From positions 1 to 64,000 of the forward strand of contig NZ_SMGG01000006.1 of NCBI RefSeq assembly GCF_004339245.1: a stretch of DNA of 64,000 nucleotides, given 5' to 3'. Each line of letters begins with the position of its first letter. Position 1 is the stretch's first letter. Positions 1,490 to 58,696 of this stretch are shown here, piece by piece. The notes beneath the pieces are model-generated. The model did no database searches. It saw only the letters and a program-made list of their open reading frames with translations, and was not told the origin of the DNA. Both the position numbers and the translations under genes were made by a program. Origin of the DNA: Seleniivibrio woodruffii. Its GTDB lineage: Bacteria > Chrysiogenota > Deferribacteres > Deferribacterales > Geovibrionaceae.

Positions 1490-1930
1490 ATGCTCGAACG
1501 GATAAGACAAAAGTTAAAAAAGATTCTGCTGCTGGACTACTCTCCGAAAAGGATTGCAATGTCCTGTGCTCTTGGGGTTTTCATCGGGTTTTCACCCTAT
1601 GTCGGCCTGCACACAGGCATGGCCATGGGAACATCATTCGTTTGCGGCCTGCCGCTTTATCCGCTTCTCATCGGAGCATACATAACAAATCCGTTCACCC
1701 TTGTGCCTGTGTATACCGTCTGCTACAAGTTCGGAGTTTTTGTGACAGGCAAGCATGCATCAATGATCCCGGACTTCGACAAGATGGACTACACGAACCT
1801 GATGCATACTGCAAAGACTTTTTTTATCCCTTTTTTTGTGGGGACACATCTGCTGGGGTTGATTCTTGGCGTAATAACGTATATCCTATCCTATTACCTA
1901 GTAACAAAATATAAGAGCAGAGTCAAATAA
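1490..1930 (+). CDS. DUF2062 membrane protein
   Basis: A 146-residue integral membrane protein of the DUF2062 family. The N-terminus (LERIRQKLKKILLLDYSPKR) is basic. It is followed by the family-typical stretch ALGVFIGFSPYVGLHTGMA, a second hydrophobic segment with YITNPFTLVPVY, and a C-terminal helix around residues 110-138. The biochemical function of the family is not established. The stop overlaps the ATG of the next gene by one base (taATG), so it is translationally coupled to the MinD-like ATPase and probably shares an operon with the CheW-CheZ fusion. Confidence 0.85.
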   Translation: MLERIRQKLKKILLLDYSPKRIAMSCALGVFIGFSPYVGLHTGMAMGTSFVCGLPLYPLLIGAYITNPFTLVPVYTVCYKFGVFVTGKHASMIPDFDKMDYTNLMHTAKTFFIPFFVGTHLLGLILGVITYILSYYLVTKYKSRVK

Positions 1931-2814
1931 TGGCTGAAATTATAGCGGTTGCCAGCGGAAAAGGCGGCGTTGGAAAAAGTTTTTTCTCGTCCAACCTCTC
2001 AATGTCCCTTAAGACCGCAGGGAACGAAACCCTGCTGGTTGATGCGGATCTGGGCGGAGCGAACCTGCACGACTTTGTAGGGCTTAAGGTGCCCGGAAAG
2101 GGACTTTACGAATTTCTGAAAGAGAAGATAGACATCGGCTCGGTTATAGCACAAAGCCCCGCCGGTGTTGATTTCGTGGGCGGTTCCAGCGATGTTCTGG
2201 GCATGGCTCACATAACGAACTTCGAAAAGCTCAAGGTTTTAAACAGAATCAAGAAACTCGACTATAAATACATAATCCTCGATCTCGGCGCCGGAACAAG
2301 TTTCAATATGATAGATTTCTTCAACTTTGCCGATAAGAAGATTATGATAATGAACTCCGAGCCCACCAGCCTGGAGAACTCATACGGTTTCCTCAAGGTT
2401 GCTCTCTACCGCAAGATAGAGCTGCATCTGCGCAAGGACACCAAATACAGCGACATATGCAACAAGCTGCGCAGCAAGAGCATGAACTATCCGAATATCA
2501 ACACTATTCTCCATGCCCTGTCCGAGGTTGACCCCGCCGGAAGCGACGAAATTAAGCGGATGGTGGACGATTATAAGATAGGCACGGTGCTTAATCTGGT
2601 GCGCACAAGAAAAGAATTGAATGTTTTTTACGGTTTTGAGAATGTTACTAAAAAATATCTCGGCATAAATATTGAAAAATTAGGATTTATGCCCTATGAT
2701 ATTAGCGTCAGCGAAAGTATCAAGCTGATGCGTCCTTATTATATAAACAACATGAGAAGCGACGTGGCCAAGTGCATTGATGACATCAGAAGCCACATCC
2801 TAACTAAGCTTTGA
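1930..2814 (+). CDS. MinD/FlhG-family deviant Walker A ATPase
   Basis: A 294-residue P-loop ATPase of the ParA/MinD superfamily. The deviant Walker A SGKGGVGKS is at residues 9-17 and LLVDADLGGANLH forms the switch region. YIILDLGAGTSFNMIDFF corresponds to Walker B. I see no obvious C-terminal amphipathic MinD membrane-targeting helix. The family includes MinD (division site), FlhG (flagellar number) and ParC-like proteins that position chemotaxis arrays. The next gene, 12 bp downstream, is a chemotaxis fusion protein, which favours a role in positioning flagella or chemoreceptor arrays over cell division. That functional choice is inferred from context. Confidence 0.85.
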   Translation: MAEIIAVASGKGGVGKSFFSSNLSMSLKTAGNETLLVDADLGGANLHDFVGLKVPGKGLYEFLKEKIDIGSVIAQSPAGVDFVGGSSDVLGMAHITNFEKLKVLNRIKKLDYKYIILDLGAGTSFNMIDFFNFADKKIMIMNSEPTSLENSYGFLKVALYRKIELHLRKDTKYSDICNKLRSKSMNYPNINTILHALSEVDPAGSDEIKRMVDDYKIGTVLNLVRTRKELNVFYGFENVTKKYLGINIEKLGFMPYDISVSESIKLMRPYYINNMRSDVAKCIDDIRSHILTKL

Positions 2815-2826
2815 GGGAGTGCCCAC

Positions 2827-4845
2827 ATGAGTAATCTTCAGCCTGTACGAGATCTGGAATACGGAGATGTGAACCACTCTGACGATCTGGAGGTTATCCA
2901 GCTGGTCGGCCTCAAGCTCGGCGAAGAGGAATATGCCATTGATGTTCTTAAGATTCAGGAGATAATCCGGACTGTGGACATCACCTCTGTTCCCCGCACC
3001 GACTCATTTGTCCTCGGGGTAATGAACCTCAGAGGCAAGGTTATCCCAGTTATAGACCTTCGTGTCCGTTTCTCTCTGGACAAGATGGATTTTGACAAGG
3101 AAACCAGAATCATCGTTGTTAAATTTGAAACGGAGAACATCGGCTTCGTTGTTGACGAAGTGACCGAAGTTATCCGCATTAATAAGAAAATGGTTGAACC
3201 CACCCCCCCTCTCGTAGGCTCTGTGGGGCAGGAATATATTTTAGGCATATGCAAGTACGCCGACAGACTCATAATCCTTCTGGATATCGACAGCGTTATT
3301 GCCGACGGCAAGACTGTTCTGGACAGCAACCTGAAAAAATCTCTCCTCGGTCAGCCTGCGCTGCCCTCTCAGGAGAGCAACTTCAACAAGGTTGCCGCAG
3401 CTGTTGAAAAAGAATTCGAATCAAAAGAAAACTATTCACCTGCCGCCATTGAAGCTGATGAGGATATCTTTGAAGAATCCGATGAAGAAGCTCCCGCAGG
3501 CGACCTTTCAATAGACGATCTCATAGCTCTTGAGCTTAATAAGCGTGAGCAGGAGACCGACGAACTGAACAAGAAGAAAGAGGAAGGAAAAAAAAAGCCT
3601 GAAATAGTTCAGGATTCAATGGATGACATCCTTAACGATGCCCTCAACCAGTCCGAGAACTCAATGCAGTCCACAACAGGACACGTTGAACAGGATGAGC
3701 TCGACTTTCTTATTCAGCAGGAACTGACAAAACGCGAAAAAGAGACCGAAGAGCTCAATAAAAAAAAAAATCTAGCTGACATGACAGGACAGGCCTGTGA
3801 AGTCAAGCCTGCCCAGGTTCCCAGCATAGAACTTTCTGAAGACGACATCGACAAGCTTATGGAGGCCGAACTGGCCGCTCAGGAGCTTGCAGAGAAAAAA
3901 TCCTCAAAAATTTCCGTAAAAGATGAAATGATCGAAGAACCCGCCGCAGAGGAAATTTCCGCTGGAGACGGGCAGTTCGACATACCCGAAGACCTCGCCG
4001 CAGAGTTCGGTCTGGACGACATCTCTCTGCCCGAAGAAGCTCAGGAAGAGGAGTTCACCCTTCCCGAACCCATCGAACAGGAAATGGGCGACGAGATAAT
4101 AGGAAAGGGCATTGCCGACAAGTTCACGGAAGACGAAGAGCTTGTGGACTCGGTGGACGATCTTCTGGAACAGCTGAAAGACATCCCATCAGAACCTGTG
4201 GCAGTTGACAGTGTGCAGGCCATGAAAACCGCCGCATCACCCTTCAACGAACAGGAGTCCTTTGAAAAACTGAAAACTCTCTCCAAAAAGATCATAGACG
4301 GCGAAAAAGTTGACCTCGGAATAAGCATAAAGCAGGAAGTTTCCGAGCTTCTCCGCCTTATTCTGGACACAAAAGGCCGTGTGGACGAGATCGAACCCAC
4401 ACTGATAACCTCCAGAGAACAGATCCCCACTCTTGTAAAATCCCTTGAAAATGTGACCGAATCCACAGAAGAGGCCACTCTGGGACTTATGGAGGCGGCG
4501 GACGGACTGACCGGCCACTATCAGGAGTTCCTTGACGAGATAGAGGATCTGGAAGACCTTATGTACAAAAAGGATCAGGCCGCAATCCTGAAAAAGCTGG
4601 AAGCCCTTGAAAACAGCGCCGCAATGGCCGACACAATGGGCATGAACATTCTGCACTCACTGGAATTTCAGGATATCACCGAGCAGAAACTTAGAAAAGT
4701 AATAAACGCTGTGCGTGAGATAGGCGGAAGGCTGGGCGCAATTCTCGGCTTCATAAAACTGAAGCAGGAGGTCGATCCCACTACAGTGGAAGATGCTTCT
4801 CAGGACGATATCGACAAGCTTCTTGCGGAGTTCGGACTGAACTGA
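2827..4845 (+). CDS. CheW-CheZ fusion with multiple CheY-binding-like peptides
   Basis: A 672-residue cytoplasmic chemotaxis protein. Residues ~22-160 are a CheW domain (VGLKLGEEEYAIDVLKIQEI; GVMNLRGKVIPVIDLR). Residues ~165-465 are a long acidic, low-complexity linker. Residues ~475-672 resemble the CheZ phosphatase: helical-bundle sequence, then EFQDITEQ, in which D616 and Q620 match the catalytic Asp and Gln of E. coli CheZ (QDLTGQ), and a C-terminal SQDDIDKLLAEFGLN like the CheZ tail that binds CheY-P. Related SxDDIDxL-like peptides recur in the linker at residues 227-237, 262-273, 287-300, 336-349 and 439-450. The protein would couple an array to CheY-P dephosphorylation. Chemotaxis proteins with CheW plus CheZ regions are unusual; the extra peptides are odder still. 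Confidence 0.85.
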   Translation: MSNLQPVRDLEYGDVNHSDDLEVIQLVGLKLGEEEYAIDVLKIQEIIRTVDITSVPRTDSFVLGVMNLRGKVIPVIDLRVRFSLDKMDFDKETRIIVVKFETENIGFVVDEVTEVIRINKKMVEPTPPLVGSVGQEYILGICKYADRLIILLDIDSVIADGKTVLDSNLKKSLLGQPALPSQESNFNKVAAAVEKEFESKENYSPAAIEADEDIFEESDEEAPAGDLSIDDLIALELNKREQETDELNKKKEEGKKKPEIVQDSMDDILNDALNQSENSMQSTTGHVEQDELDFLIQQELTKREKETEELNKKKNLADMTGQACEVKPAQVPSIELSEDDIDKLMEAELAAQELAEKKSSKISVKDEMIEEPAAEEISAGDGQFDIPEDLAAEFGLDDISLPEEAQEEEFTLPEPIEQEMGDEIIGKGIADKFTEDEELVDSVDDLLEQLKDIPSEPVAVDSVQAMKTAASPFNEQESFEKLKTLSKKIIDGEKVDLGISIKQEVSELLRLILDTKGRVDEIEPTLITSREQIPTLVKSLENVTESTEEATLGLMEAADGLTGHYQEFLDEIEDLEDLMYKKDQAAILKKLEALENSAAMADTMGMNILHSLEFQDITEQKLRKVINAVREIGGRLGAILGFIKLKQEVDPTTVEDASQDDIDKLLAEFGLN

Positions 4846-7263: not shown

Positions 7264-9016
7264 AAATTTTCTCCCCGTCACCGCAGAGGAGATCTCTGCG
7301 CTGGGATGGGACAGACCTGATATTATACTTGTGTCCGGAGACACCTATCTGGACAGCCCCTACAACGGAACGGCCATCATAGGCCGCCTGCTTCAGGACG
7401 AGGGCTACCGTGTGGCTATCATAGCACAGCCTGATATGAACACTGCGGACATCGCACGTCTGGGCGAACCGAAGCTCTTCTGGGGAGTTTCCGCCGGATG
7501 CGTCGACTCAATGGTGGCAAACTACACAGCCTCCAAGAAAAAGCGCAGAACAGACGATTTCACCCCCGGCGGCGAAAACGACAGACGCCCCGACAGAGCA
7601 CTGCTGGCCTACACCAACCTGATACGCAGACACTTTAAAAATACAAAACCGATAGTTCTGGGCGGCATAGAGGCCAGTCTGCGCAGAGTCACCCATTACG
7701 ACTTCTGGTCGGACGGACTGCGCAAACCGATACTGTTTGATGCAAAAGCGGACTATCTTGTCTACGGAATGGGCGAAAAGACCATTCTGGAGCTTGCCGA
7801 AGCTCTTAAAAACGGTTCGGACACAACAGGAATAAGGGGGCTGTGCTACTACGCCAAAGAGATCCCCGCAGGATATGCCGAGCTGCCCTCTCACGAGGAA
7901 TGCACAGAAGACAAAGACGTTTTCACCAAAATGTTCCATACATTTTATCAGAATAACGATCCCATAACGGCCAAAGGGCTGGCGCAAAGGGTTGACACAA
8001 GATACCTGATACAGAACCCGCCTTCACAGACGCCCAGCCGCATCGAGATGAACAGATACTACGAACTGCCGTACACCTACAGAGTGCACCCGTTCTACGC
8101 CGCACAGGGGCCTGTGCGTGCTCTGGACACAATCCGCAACTCGGTGACCACCCACAGAGGATGCTACGGTGAGTGCAGTTTCTGCGCAATAGCCGTACAT
8201 CAGGGAATAACGATAGCAGAACGGACTGAGGCCTCTGTCCTTAAAGAAGTCCAGCGGTTCATAGATGCAGAAGGGTTCAACGGCATCATAAACGATGTTG
8301 GCGGCCCCACGGCAAACATGTTCGGCATGGAATGCCGCAAGAAAAAAGATCACGGCAGATGTGCAAACAAGCGATGCCTCTATCCGCAGAAATGCCCCCA
8401 GATGCCTTCCGATCACAGAAAGCTGAACAGCCTTCTGAACAGCATCCGGAAAACTGAAGGGATAAAGCGTGTTTTTGTGGCATCAGGAATCAGATACGAC
8501 ATAATAATGGACGACAAGGCATTCGGCGGTCAATATCTTGACAACATGGTCAATTTCCATGTCAGCGGTCAGATGAAGATTGCGCCGGAACACATGAAGG
8601 ACAACATCCTCGGACTGATGGGCAAACCCTCGGCGGACGTGCTGAAAAAGTTCGTGGAGGATTTTTATAAGCGGAACAAGGTCAGACAGCAGTTCCTCAC
8701 CTATTATCTGATTGCGGCGCATCCCGGCTGCACTGTGCAGGATATGGAGGATCTGAAAAAATTCACCTCAAAGGAACTCAAGATAAACCCGGAGCAGGTG
8801 CAGATATTCACCCCCACACCGTCAACCTATTCGTCTTTAATGTATTACACTGAAAAAAACCCTTTCACAGGGGAAAGCATTTTTGTGGAAAAAGATCCCA
8901 ACAGGCGCAAAATCCAGAAGGATATCATCGCTCCGCCGGAAGAGAAAAAACCTGTGAAAACAGTACCCTATCCCTTCGCTAAAAAGAAAAAGGGCTCTAA
9001 TCGCCCAAAAGGATAA
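7250..9016 (+). CDS. YgiQ-family radical SAM protein
   Basis: A ~588-residue member of the YgiQ family. The N-terminal B12-binding-like region contains FLPVTAEEISALGWDRPDIILVSGDTYLDSP, the standard YgiQ start. That is why the ATG at 7250 is preferred over one 45 bp upstream inside the ligase gene. The radical SAM cluster motif is CYGECSFC in TTHRGCYGECSFCAIAVHQG, and a Cys-rich insert (GRCANKRCLYPQKCPQMPSDH) follows. The tail is Lys-rich. The reaction catalysed by this family is not known. The 3' end overlaps the convergent toxin gene by 20 bases. Confidence 0.9.
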   Translation: MTTSKNFLPVTAEEISALGWDRPDIILVSGDTYLDSPYNGTAIIGRLLQDEGYRVAIIAQPDMNTADIARLGEPKLFWGVSAGCVDSMVANYTASKKKRRTDDFTPGGENDRRPDRALLAYTNLIRRHFKNTKPIVLGGIEASLRRVTHYDFWSDGLRKPILFDAKADYLVYGMGEKTILELAEALKNGSDTTGIRGLCYYAKEIPAGYAELPSHEECTEDKDVFTKMFHTFYQNNDPITAKGLAQRVDTRYLIQNPPSQTPSRIEMNRYYELPYTYRVHPFYAAQGPVRALDTIRNSVTTHRGCYGECSFCAIAVHQGITIAERTEASVLKEVQRFIDAEGFNGIINDVGGPTANMFGMECRKKKDHGRCANKRCLYPQKCPQMPSDHRKLNSLLNSIRKTEGIKRVFVASGIRYDIIMDDKAFGGQYLDNMVNFHVSGQMKIAPEHMKDNILGLMGKPSADVLKKFVEDFYKRNKVRQQFLTYYLIAAHPGCTVQDMEDLKKFTSKELKINPEQVQIFTPTPSTYSSLMYYTEKNPFTGESIFVEKDPNRRKIQKDIIAPPEEKKPVKTVPYPFAKKKKGSNRPKG

Positions 9017-9338
9017 CCGATATGTTTCTCAGGACTGCCTCAAGCTCCTTATCATCGGCTTTAGCTATGAATGAGGCATTTCTGACTTTCCAGTCAAGGC
9101 TTTTAACCTGATCCGACAGCACCACACCATTTATACCGTCATGATTTATTGAAACTTCGAAAACATATCCTTTCACTCTGCTGGTGACAGGACACATGAG
9201 AGCCAGACCTGTCTTTCGGTTATATTCTTCTCCGGAAACAACAATTGCCGGCCTATGCCCCTTCTGTTCGTGTCCGGACTGCGGGTTAAAATCAAGCCAG
9301 ACGATATCACCCTTCGCAGGCACATACCCCTTTACCAT
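8997..9338 (-). CDS. MazF/PemK-family endoribonuclease toxin
   Basis: A 113-residue toxin with the MazF signature: GDIVWLDFNPQSGHEQKGHRPAIVVS at the N-terminus, CPVTSRVKGYVFEV in the middle and GVVLSDQVKSLDW near the C-terminus. Members cleave mRNA at short sequence motifs. The ATG lies inside the last codons of the antitoxin gene (7-base overlap), the usual coupled arrangement. Length and catalytic region look intact. The cleavage motif cannot be predicted. Confidence 0.92.
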   Translation of the reverse strand: MVKGYVPAKGDIVWLDFNPQSGHEQKGHRPAIVVSGEEYNRKTGLALMCPVTSRVKGYVFEVSINHDGINGVVLSDQVKSLDWKVRNASFIAKADDKELEAVLRNISVILLGD

Positions 9339-9604
9339 TCTTCATTCCCCGTTTTTTCGCCTGTTGAAACTTCCGAATGCAGAGTATCATCCGTAATCTT
9401 AGACAGCATATTTTTAAGGATTGAATCAGCCTCCGACACTGTGAGTTCACCCAAAGGTATCTCTTTGAAAGGAATCAGAATTATGCGGTTCTCGCTATCC
9501 ACCGTTACACGGACACTGCTGACTCCGTTCAGAAGCCTGCCAAGGGTGATGCGTCCTTTGCTATCGGGTTTGAGAGTCATCTCAAATTTTTCAGCCATTC
9601 CCAT
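9332..9604 (-). CDS. MazE-like AbrB-fold antitoxin
   Basis: A 90-residue partner of the MazF toxin. The N-terminal half has the SpoVT/AbrB swapped-hairpin pattern (FEMTLKPDSKGRITLGRLL). The C-terminal half (SEADSILKNMLSKITDD) probably wraps the toxin. AGGAGG is well placed before the ATG at 9604. It is the first gene of the module and probably represses the operon through its N-terminal domain, as is known for the family. Confidence 0.85.
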   Translation of the reverse strand: MGMAEKFEMTLKPDSKGRITLGRLLNGVSSVRVTVDSENRIILIPFKEIPLGELTVSEADSILKNMLSKITDDTLHSEVSTGEKTGNEEW

Positions 9605-57126: not shown

Positions 57127-57519
57127 ATGAGAAAAAGAGTACTTCTGATAGACGATGAAGAATATTTCAGATCCAGCGTCAAGATCGCCCTTAAGCGGGA
57201 AGGGATACAGGTCACAGACGAACAGGACGGAACGGACGGAATGCGGAACATAATGCTCAGCATGTCGACAGGTGACCTGTATGACCTGATAATCCTGGAC
57301 ATAATGATGCCGGGGCTCACAGGCATTGATATTCTGGAGTTCATTCTTCAGAACGAACTGGATATTCCGGTGATAGTCGTCACCGGATACATGGACTACG
57401 ACCTCCGGTTCTTCTGCTCAAATATCAAAAGGATCAAGGTTATGGAAAAACCCTTCAGCCACGACATGCTGGTGAGCGAGGTTCTTTCCATGCTCAGCGG
57501 AGGCGCAAATGAACGCTAA
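57127..57519 (+). CDS. Single-domain response regulator, first gene of the che operon
   Basis: A 130-residue CheY-like receiver: [31 protein letters not shown] with the phospho-Asp, [17 protein letters not shown]. No output domain. There is no ribosome binding site before the ATG, and the sigma-54 start point nearly coincides with it, so translation may be leaderless. Its last codons overlap the MCP start by 11 bases. Confidence 0.88.
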
Positions 57520-58696
57520 GGTCGTGCTTTTTCTGATTGGTGCCGCAATAACGGGTGTCAGCTTCACGGAGTCAATGCTAATAAGACCCGCCCTCACCCT
57601 GTTTCTGCTCATAGGGGCATATTTTGCGGTGTCGTCGGTTATCCGCTCGGTAAGAGCCGATGCGGAAAAACAGGCCGGAATAACGGCATCACACACAATC
57701 CAATCCATAAATTCAAATACAGCCCCTTTGGGCAAAGTTCTCAATGATTACGGAACCCTTATGAAGGTGTTTCAGGAACAGCTTAAAAACGTCAATGCCG
57801 ACAGCGACAAAGCCACAAACACCATAAGCGGGAGTTTTTCCGACATAGTCGACAAGGCAATGAATCAGTCGCAGGAGGCCGGCCGTGCTCTGGAAGGCTT
57901 CACAGGGGGAGAAGGCGGACAGGGATTCGTAGAAAGCAGCAGACAGACGCTCATCAGCGTTATCCGTGAAATGCAGGAGATGGGCTCATACGCCGTGAAG
58001 TCAAACGAAAGCCTGCAGGGTGTAATGAAAGAGGTGGAGAGCATAAGGGAGATAGTCGCAAACGTTGGCTATATAGCCGACCAGACTAACCTCCTCGCCC
58101 TCAACGCCGCCATTGAGGCCGCAAGAGCCGGAGAACACGGAAGAGGATTTGCCGTTGTTGCTGACGAGATACGCAAGCTTTCAGAAAAATCCAACCAGTT
58201 CGCTTCGGAAATAAAGACCGCAGTGAACAGCATTTCATCAAAAGTGACCTCGATCCACAGTGAATCGGCTTTCGAAGTGGACAAGATCGACCGGATCACC
58301 GCCGGAGCCCACAAAGAGGTGGACAGCACTCTGACAGGTCTGGACAAGGCCCTGGAACACTCAAAGAACATCATAGCCGAGCTTCAGCTAAGCTCAATGG
58401 CACTGGCACAGGACATCAACGCAATGGTGGTCTCAATGCAGTATCAGGACATAAACAGACAGCGGATCGAGCATGTGATCGAACCCCTTGAGATAATGAA
58501 ACAGGATCTTCAGTCCATTGCGGAAGGGCTGAAAAATATAACCGAAGCGGGCGCTGCCCTGAACATAACCGAGCTTTCGGAGCATCTCAACCGGATATAC
58601 ACAATGGAATCCGAGCGAGAGCTTATGTCCAGCGTGTCCGCAGGCAAAACCAAAGGCGGCAGAGCCAAGGCCGCAGACAACGTGGAACTTTTTTAG
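57509..58696 (+). CDS. MCP-type signalling protein with minimal membrane anchor
   Basis: A 395-residue receptor-like protein. Two hydrophobic segments ([15 protein letters not shown] and [18 protein letters not shown], ~4-50) are linked by only a few residues, so there is no periplasmic ligand domain and no HAMP. The cytoplasmic signalling domain has the tip [41 protein letters not shown]. The C-terminal ~90 residues ([25 protein letters not shown]) resemble the CheZ/TlpC-like helical tails seen in some receptors. It may sense an internal or membrane state rather than an external ligand. Confidence 0.87.

Follow-up and report, generated by a model that had tools for sequence, protein, structure and literature searches.

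In Escherichia coli, the short form of CheA (CheA-short) binds CheZ and places it at the receptor array, and in Campylobacterota the separate protein ChePep provides a dedicated means of placing CheZ (both as described in the available sections of PMC7750401). A CheW domain can also be fused to another signalling part, as in CheV, a CheW–REC fusion (available sections of PMC12691637), and ParP of Vibrio combines an N-terminal ParC-binding part, a long linker, and a C-terminal CheW-like domain (available sections of PMC5706961). As to slippage at runs of A, dnaX of Thermus is a programmed slippage gene with nearby stops in both non-zero frames (available sections of PMC5009743 and PMC1088944); furthermore, tssM1 of Citrobacter rodentium has an A11 run with a frameshift of 20–25%, both forms being needed, and in Yersinia the full-length form of tssM1 is the commoner one (available sections of PMC4256274). 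In the literature searched, which includes few papers from subscription journals, we found no description of a CheW–CheZ fusion or of programmed slippage in a chemotaxis gene. CheW, CheZ, and chemotaxis are not mentioned in the available sections of PMC3711429, PMC1088944, and PMC5009743, and the taxonomic paper of the phylum examined here (PMC11896075) gives, in its available sections, separate CheW and CheZ genes only.

The DNA that we analysed is a stretch of 64,000 nucleotides (hereafter, the window) from Seleniivibrio woodruffii, namely positions 1–64,000 of the forward strand of NZ_SMGG01000006.1 in the assembly GCF_004339245.1. An open reading frame (ORF) of 672 amino acids at 2827–4845 (+) encodes, in its long form, a CheW domain, a linker, and a CheZ part. 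A sequence-only reading of this DNA had described the ORF as a CheW–CheZ fusion, and we indeed found matches to both domains and the fusion conserved across the phylum; that reading was silent on a long run of A in the linker, on lineages with CheZ out of frame, and on a linked ATPase gene. The CheW domain it had proposed was borne out by the Pfam search (PF01584; aa 25–160; 2899–3306, +), with an E-value of 3.9e-38 and 130.6 bits against a curated cut-off of 23.5, and the best structural match to its fold was TtCheW (Z 19.2, rmsd 2.4, 142 aligned residues). No REC domain was found after CheW in the window protein by the Pfam search; compared with CheV, the protein likewise has a CheW domain fused to another signalling part but carries a putative phosphatase in place of REC.

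The CheZ part covers aa 475–672 (4249–4842, +) according to the orthologue alignment and a profile of orthologous CheZ parts. With the window protein alone, the Pfam CheZ match (aa 538–650, E 0.0059) scored 17 bits and was below the cut-off of 30.7; several orthologues score above this cut-off, and when 35 orthologous CheZ parts are combined in a profile, its best solved relative is E. coli CheZ (1kmi_Z, E 9.3e-9). The CheZ domain proposed from the sequence was hence recovered by the family profile, and only below the cut-off by the single-sequence search. In the same 35-row profile, FQDITEQ pairs with FQDLTGQ of 1kmi_Z, and the terminal peptide pairs with SQDQVDDLLDSLGF. The D and Q of FQDxTxQ, which we take to be the catalytic residues of CheZ, correspond to D616 and Q620 (4672–4686, +); both were correctly placed by the sequence-only reading and are invariant in 33 of 33 full-length rows and 35 of 35 CheZ rows. 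The CheZ-type terminal peptide that it had noticed, the CheY-P-type SQDDIDKLLAEFGLN (aa 658–672; 4798–4842, +), is also present by sequence in the window protein and aligns with the end of E. coli CheZ. Among the orthologues, this peptide is retained in 24 of 35 rows, and the 11 rows that have lost it all belong to families f6 and f7. The predicted model of the CheZ part is a long helical hairpin (pLDDT 65), and its match to 1kmi_Z (Z 9.9, rmsd 11.3, 161 aligned) is level with those to unrelated helical proteins. Structural proof of the CheZ fold was thus given up as non-discriminating, with IpaB, HP0958, PspA, and other helical proteins above or level with CheZ, and 1kmi was not among the matches listed for the model of the CheZ domain only. 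On sequence grounds, nonetheless, the C-terminal ~200 residues are related to CheZ and would be expected to have phosphatase activity.

A second, separate CheZ is encoded in the window's genome, in the flagellar cluster, where a FliN-type gene and a CheY-like ORF precede it. We also noticed a further CheZ-type protein of ~318 aa with LQFQDISRQK in another genome of the phylum (G002, L131:1039–1992, −), which has FliM-like peptides at both ends (QSDIDALLAQF, DDIESLMAEV, and SDDDIEALIGSF). Within the window, an ORF at 57509–58696 (+) adjoining cheY-like and cheA-like ORFs encodes an MCP-signal protein, in which MCPsignal is the only Pfam match above the cut-off and a stretch near the end resembles the CheZ active site. 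Elsewhere in the window's genome (G000:C3:399356–400795), three CheW-domain matches occur in a row in a 511-residue frame, which is probably a triple-CheW protein.

The linker between CheW and CheZ contains a conserved unit of ~23 residues, [IL]-D-x-L-I-A-x-E-L-x-K-R-E-x-E-[TD], in which L, I, E, L, R, E, and E are invariant in 14 sample copies. In the window protein, repeat 1 (SIDDLIALELNKREQETDELNKK; aa 229–251; 3511–3579, +) and repeat 2 (HVEQDELDFLIQQELTKREKETEELNKKK; aa 286–314; 3682–3768, +), the latter with a FliM-like front, were located by the pattern, the alignment, and a repeat profile; D293, I296, E299, L300, R303, E304, and E306 of repeat 2 are invariant in the 33 full-length rows. 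Outside family f9, most of the phylum has one to four copies per protein; a search with the strict pattern overlooks a second copy in five f7 rows and yields no copy in G004 and G005. When seven genomes were searched with the repeat profile, essentially only the CheW–CheZ gene was matched, with two copies in four genomes, four in G003, and none in G015. One partial copy outside the gene was found in G005, in a different ORF that lies at the edge of a contig, and may result from sequences having been joined during assembly at a tract of low complexity. The sequence-only reading had taken the linker to be probably disordered; most of it is indeed of low confidence in the predicted structure, but both repeats are modelled as helices with confidence (block pLDDT 83–88). 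The front half of the repeat is similar to the N-terminus of FliM in this phylum (SQ[DE]EIDALL); for the rear half (ELxKRExE), neither FliM nor CheZ has a counterpart.

The five S-x-D-D-[IL]-D-x-L peptides that the same reading had assigned to the linker are present at or within one residue of the places given, but only aa 337–344 (SEDDIDKL) fit the motif strictly. As to their conservation among orthologues, which that reading had named as a refuting test, the outcome is split: the peptides at 227–237 and 287–300 turned out to be the fronts of the phylum-wide repeats 1 and 2, and that at 262–273 is conserved but as a different motif, DDILNDALxQS (aa 262–275; 3610–3651, +), whereas the remaining two, at aa 336–349 (3832–3873, +) and aa 439–450 (4141–4176, +), are seen only within the genus. 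With a scoring matrix based on the N-termini of FliM and the C-termini of CheZ in the phylum, the site at 336–349 scores at least 10 in four of five genomes of the genus, and that at 439–450 is weak. The linker of the window has one site of at least 8 bits (aa 337) against 0.27 expected by shuffling (P 0.24), and the sum of its top three scores is unusual compared with shuffles (P 0.004). A ladder of five FliM-like peptides was consequently set aside, given that the scoring-matrix test provides no support and the strict motif occurs at aa 337–344 only.

By reading of the search results, an orthologue was found in 46 of 50 genomes of the phylum, and a scan of contigs with window-specific patterns gave seven loci, all within the phylum. 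The orthologue is absent among these 50 genomes in G015, G017, and G048, the three without FliM, and in G030, which is 78% complete. Of the 46 orthologues, 44 include the CheZ part; in the other two (G004 and G005), the CheW gene and FliM are present, and no CheZ match of any kind was found anywhere in the genome. These two (L063, L064, and L170) represent a small-genome lineage, and the linker in G004 is of low complexity with one degenerate repeat. A joint loss of the repeats and CheZ is hence not supported.

A run of 10–14 A lies between the repeats and CheZ in 43 of the 44 orthologues with a CheZ part, and the sole exception (G001) retains the fusion but has no run longer than 6. In the window, this is an A11 run at 3760–3770 (+), the proposed main slippage site, at which the lysines at aa 312–314 are coded by AAA AAA AAA. 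The two frames not leading to CheZ stop one and three codons past the run, namely at TAG (3773–3775) with one A fewer and at TGA (3777–3779) with one A more (both +), and the predicted short products would be of 315–317 aa. An A9 run at 3588–3596 (+) is a possible second slippage site with predicted short products of 257–260 aa. The lysines at aa 249–251 are coded by AAG AAG AAA. Past the long run, exactly one frame reaches CheZ; in all 43 genes, each of the remaining two meets a stop within 14 codons, and in 42 of the genes within 6 codons (14 in G037). Some orthologues appear as two ORFs, in which the CheW frame ends 0–3 codons past the run and CheZ goes on in another frame. In terms of this frame, the 43 genes can be divided into 34 with CheZ in frame (32 closed ORFs together with G008 and G047, which are cut by contig ends) and nine with CheZ out of frame (G018–G020, G029, G031, and G033–G036). 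The out-of-frame CheZ is still open over 200–431 codons (in G033, it is cut by the contig end 35 codons on), and the catalytic residues are kept in the six that were aligned (G018, G020, G029, and G034–G036). In G031, the CheZ frame has no ATG, GTG, or TTG between the point at which it opens and a point inside the CheZ domain. Along a tree of the CheW part (41 rows, without G008, G033, G047, G004, and G005), the state of the frame changes at least four times, two of which are forced by starred branches, and the sign of the shift needed differs even within Denitrovibrio. Were transcripts with one A gained or lost always present, the frame in the DNA would matter little, which matches the frame switching seen. 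The conserved run, the near stops, and the out-of-frame CheZ together constitute a dnaX-type signature of programmed slippage, from which a CheW–linker and a CheW–linker–CheZ isoform are predicted. With the run, the cell can probably produce both a short form that lacks the phosphatase and a long form that includes it.

Whether such a run would be expected by chance was considered in several ways. At 37 loci, we counted 47 runs of at least 10 A or T in 69,941 bp inside the gene versus one in 254,162 bp of flank, a comparison confounded by the Lys-rich linker. Six whole genomes have 3–7 distinct A10 sites each on both strands, and the CheW–CheZ gene supplies one or two of them in all six. In the window's genome, the three A10 sites are the CheW–CheZ gene, a non-coding one, and dnaX (L146; G000:C6:234448–234457), in which the other frames stop after 4–5 codons; the A10 genes in G013 (L155) and G018 (L159), dnaX by eye, have other frames that also stop after 4–5 codons. 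These dnaX runs likely reflect tau/gamma slippage and serve as a built-in control. When synonymous codons were redrawn at the codon frequencies of each gene without altering the protein (3000 draws), A10 arose in 10–97% of the draws in genes with the run, because the linker is Lys-rich, and the simulation was abandoned as proof of selection on A10 (P 0.10–0.97). The case therefore rests on the rarity of such runs elsewhere together with the frames. As for the near stops, the fraction of codons at which both other frames stop as early is 0.02–0.30 per gene (32 genes with a run, of 33); this was not retained as single-gene proof, given that each gene is weak and the strength comes from many genes, which are themselves related.

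The gene directly upstream of the CheW end encodes a MinD/ParA-type ATPase in 37 of the 38 loci that hold this end, G031 being the exception. In the window, the neighbourhood comparison and a profile identify it as a MinD/FlhG-like ATPase gene at 1930–2814 (+), 12 bases upstream of the CheW–CheZ gene, and a DUF2062 gene at 1490–1930 (+) is the next neighbour, as in most loci. The closest solved relatives of this ATPase are FleN/FlhG. A separate FlhG-like gene with 34% identity to it is present in the flagellar cluster, so that the upstream ATPase is a distinct paralogue, which probably positions the protein or the array. ParC, the partner of ParP in Vibrio, is an ATPase of the ParA/MinD class. 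The two systems are alike in a CheW-like domain, a long linker, and a partner ATPase of this class; the CheW domain is, however, N-terminal in the window protein and fused to CheZ, the ATPase here is closest to FlhG/FleN among solved chains, and gene adjacency makes it a candidate partner. Apart from this locus, two small adjoining ORFs at 8997–9604 (−) in the window resemble a MazF/AbrB-type toxin–antitoxin pair, the names being given by eye.

Taking these results together, we consider it reasonably likely that the gene encodes an array-tethered CheZ whose dose is set by slippage at the A run, a proposal drawn from the genes. The CheW domain would put both isoforms in the chemoreceptor array beside CheA, and CheZ would be carried on a flexible linker with helical repeats. 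At the A run, a fraction of transcripts (or of translation events) would change frame and stop at once, giving CheW–linker without CheZ. The long form would bring CheZ next to CheA, so that CheY-P may be dephosphorylated where it is made, and the short form would fill the same array sites without the phosphatase; the slippage ratio would then set the density of CheZ in the array, and the MinD-like ATPase would probably position the array or the protein itself. As already suggested by the sequence-only reading, a local sink for CheY-P remains the simplest function that a phosphatase joined to an array adaptor would have. What weighs against this proposal is that the fusion persists in G001 although its runs do not exceed 6, that CheZ is missing from G004 and G005 despite their CheW gene, that the window's genome has a second CheZ, that A10 is often drawn by chance in the simulation, that run lengths in draft genomes may carry errors, and that the fold searches for CheZ do not discriminate. 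A wider version, in which RNA-polymerase slippage sets the phosphatase dose of the array phylum-wide, adaptors with and without CheZ bear helical CheY-P docking repeats, and their own MinD-like ATPase positions the protein, is put forward only tentatively; as part of it, slippage would sample all frames, and evolution would hence tolerate either frame at the DNA level.

The proposed arrangement is similar to that of CheA-short and CheZ in E. coli in that CheZ is held at the array via a protein with a long and a short form, but CheZ is here covalently joined to CheW, and the two forms would arise by slippage and not by an internal start. ChePep, likened here by description only, is similarly a dedicated means of placing CheZ but is a separate protein. 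With dnaX of Thermus and tssM1, the gene shares a run of 9–11 A and, by prediction, a long and a short product, with dnaX also the near stops in the other frames, and, as with these two genes, both arrangements occur, namely a long form in frame or one rescued by a shift. Unlike them, it is a chemotaxis gene, its site is found across a phylum in a frame that switches from one lineage to the next, and its products are predictions from the genes.

Two isoforms could also be produced by ribosomal −1 frameshifting on A_AAA_AAA instead of RNA polymerase slippage. A stable hairpin just 3′ of the run in all three Denitrovibrio genomes (z −3.0 to −5.1 over 60–85 bases), hairpins in all three of genus g3 (z −2.2 to −3.3, 60 bases) and in G032 (z −4.0), and the −1 frame, which stops within 6 codons in all 34 genes with CheZ in frame, speak for this mechanism, and the hairpins would suit ribosomal frameshifting or a mixed mechanism. 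It is rather unlikely as the general explanation, nonetheless, since most other genera including the window have no notable structure and since in G018 and G029 it is the loss of an A that would bring CheZ into frame, a change that a −1 shift does not produce; a downstream RNA structure as a general frameshift signal was hence dropped. The hairpins themselves (L046, L038, and L039; L008, L009, and L047; L052) occur in three genera and differ in arm sequences between genomes. Another possibility is that the run is a neutral or phase-variable tract shaped by replication slippage, the split genes being in decay or wrongly assembled. A10 is unsurprising in a Lys-rich linker according to the synonymous simulation, the run varies from A11 to A13 within the window's genus, and G019 has further stops in both CheZ and FliM. 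Run length and frame are fixed, however, in g3, g12, and g14, with A10 before CheZ and, in g12, a stop immediately after; the CheZ of split lineages keeps its catalytic residues and long open frames; and the single-contig genome G018 is also split. We thus regard a neutral or phase-variable tract as improbable.

As regards the linker, the model of the sequence-only reading, in which a ladder of CheY-P docking peptides buffers CheY-P and isoforms are irrelevant, draws on the second repeat, which usually starts with xQ[DN][DE]LDxLI and is near SQ[DE]EIDALL of FliM; G010 and G011 even carry SQDDLDALI (13.2 bits). Furthermore, families f6 and f7, in which the terminal CheZ peptide is gone, retain at least one repeat in each linker, a pattern that would be in keeping with docking having passed to the linker from the C-terminus. 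We find this model doubtful, however: the rear half of the repeat is without counterpart in the FliM and CheZ peptides, sites of at least 8 bits are lacking in 16 of 43 linker rows, the number of sites beats shuffles (P <0.05) in only six of 43 rows (in rows L059–L062, the scanned stretch ran into CheZ), and the A run is left unexplained. Alternatively, the repeats might bind the neighbouring MinD-like ATPase, as in ParC/ParP-like positioning, and not CheY-P. The ATPase gene stays adjacent in 37 of 38 loci, even in f9, from which CheZ is gone and in which G004 has one degenerate repeat; it is a paralogue distinct from the FlhG-like gene, and ParP of Vibrio joins a CheW-like domain to a ParC-binding part (available sections of PMC5706961). 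With G031 retaining a repeat but no adjoining ATPase gene and with a domain order opposite to that of ParP, ATPase binding is conceivable but on the unlikely side.

In conclusion, the CheW–CheZ gene of this phylum is predicted to give adaptors with and without a phosphatase through slippage at a conserved run of A. In lineages where CheZ is out of frame, the gene is split by gene finders, so that CheZ would be miscounted there. If slippage at the run is true, the enzyme that ends the signal would be directly placed and dosed at the source of the signal, and a theme known from CheA-short and CheZ in E. coli would have been solved differently.
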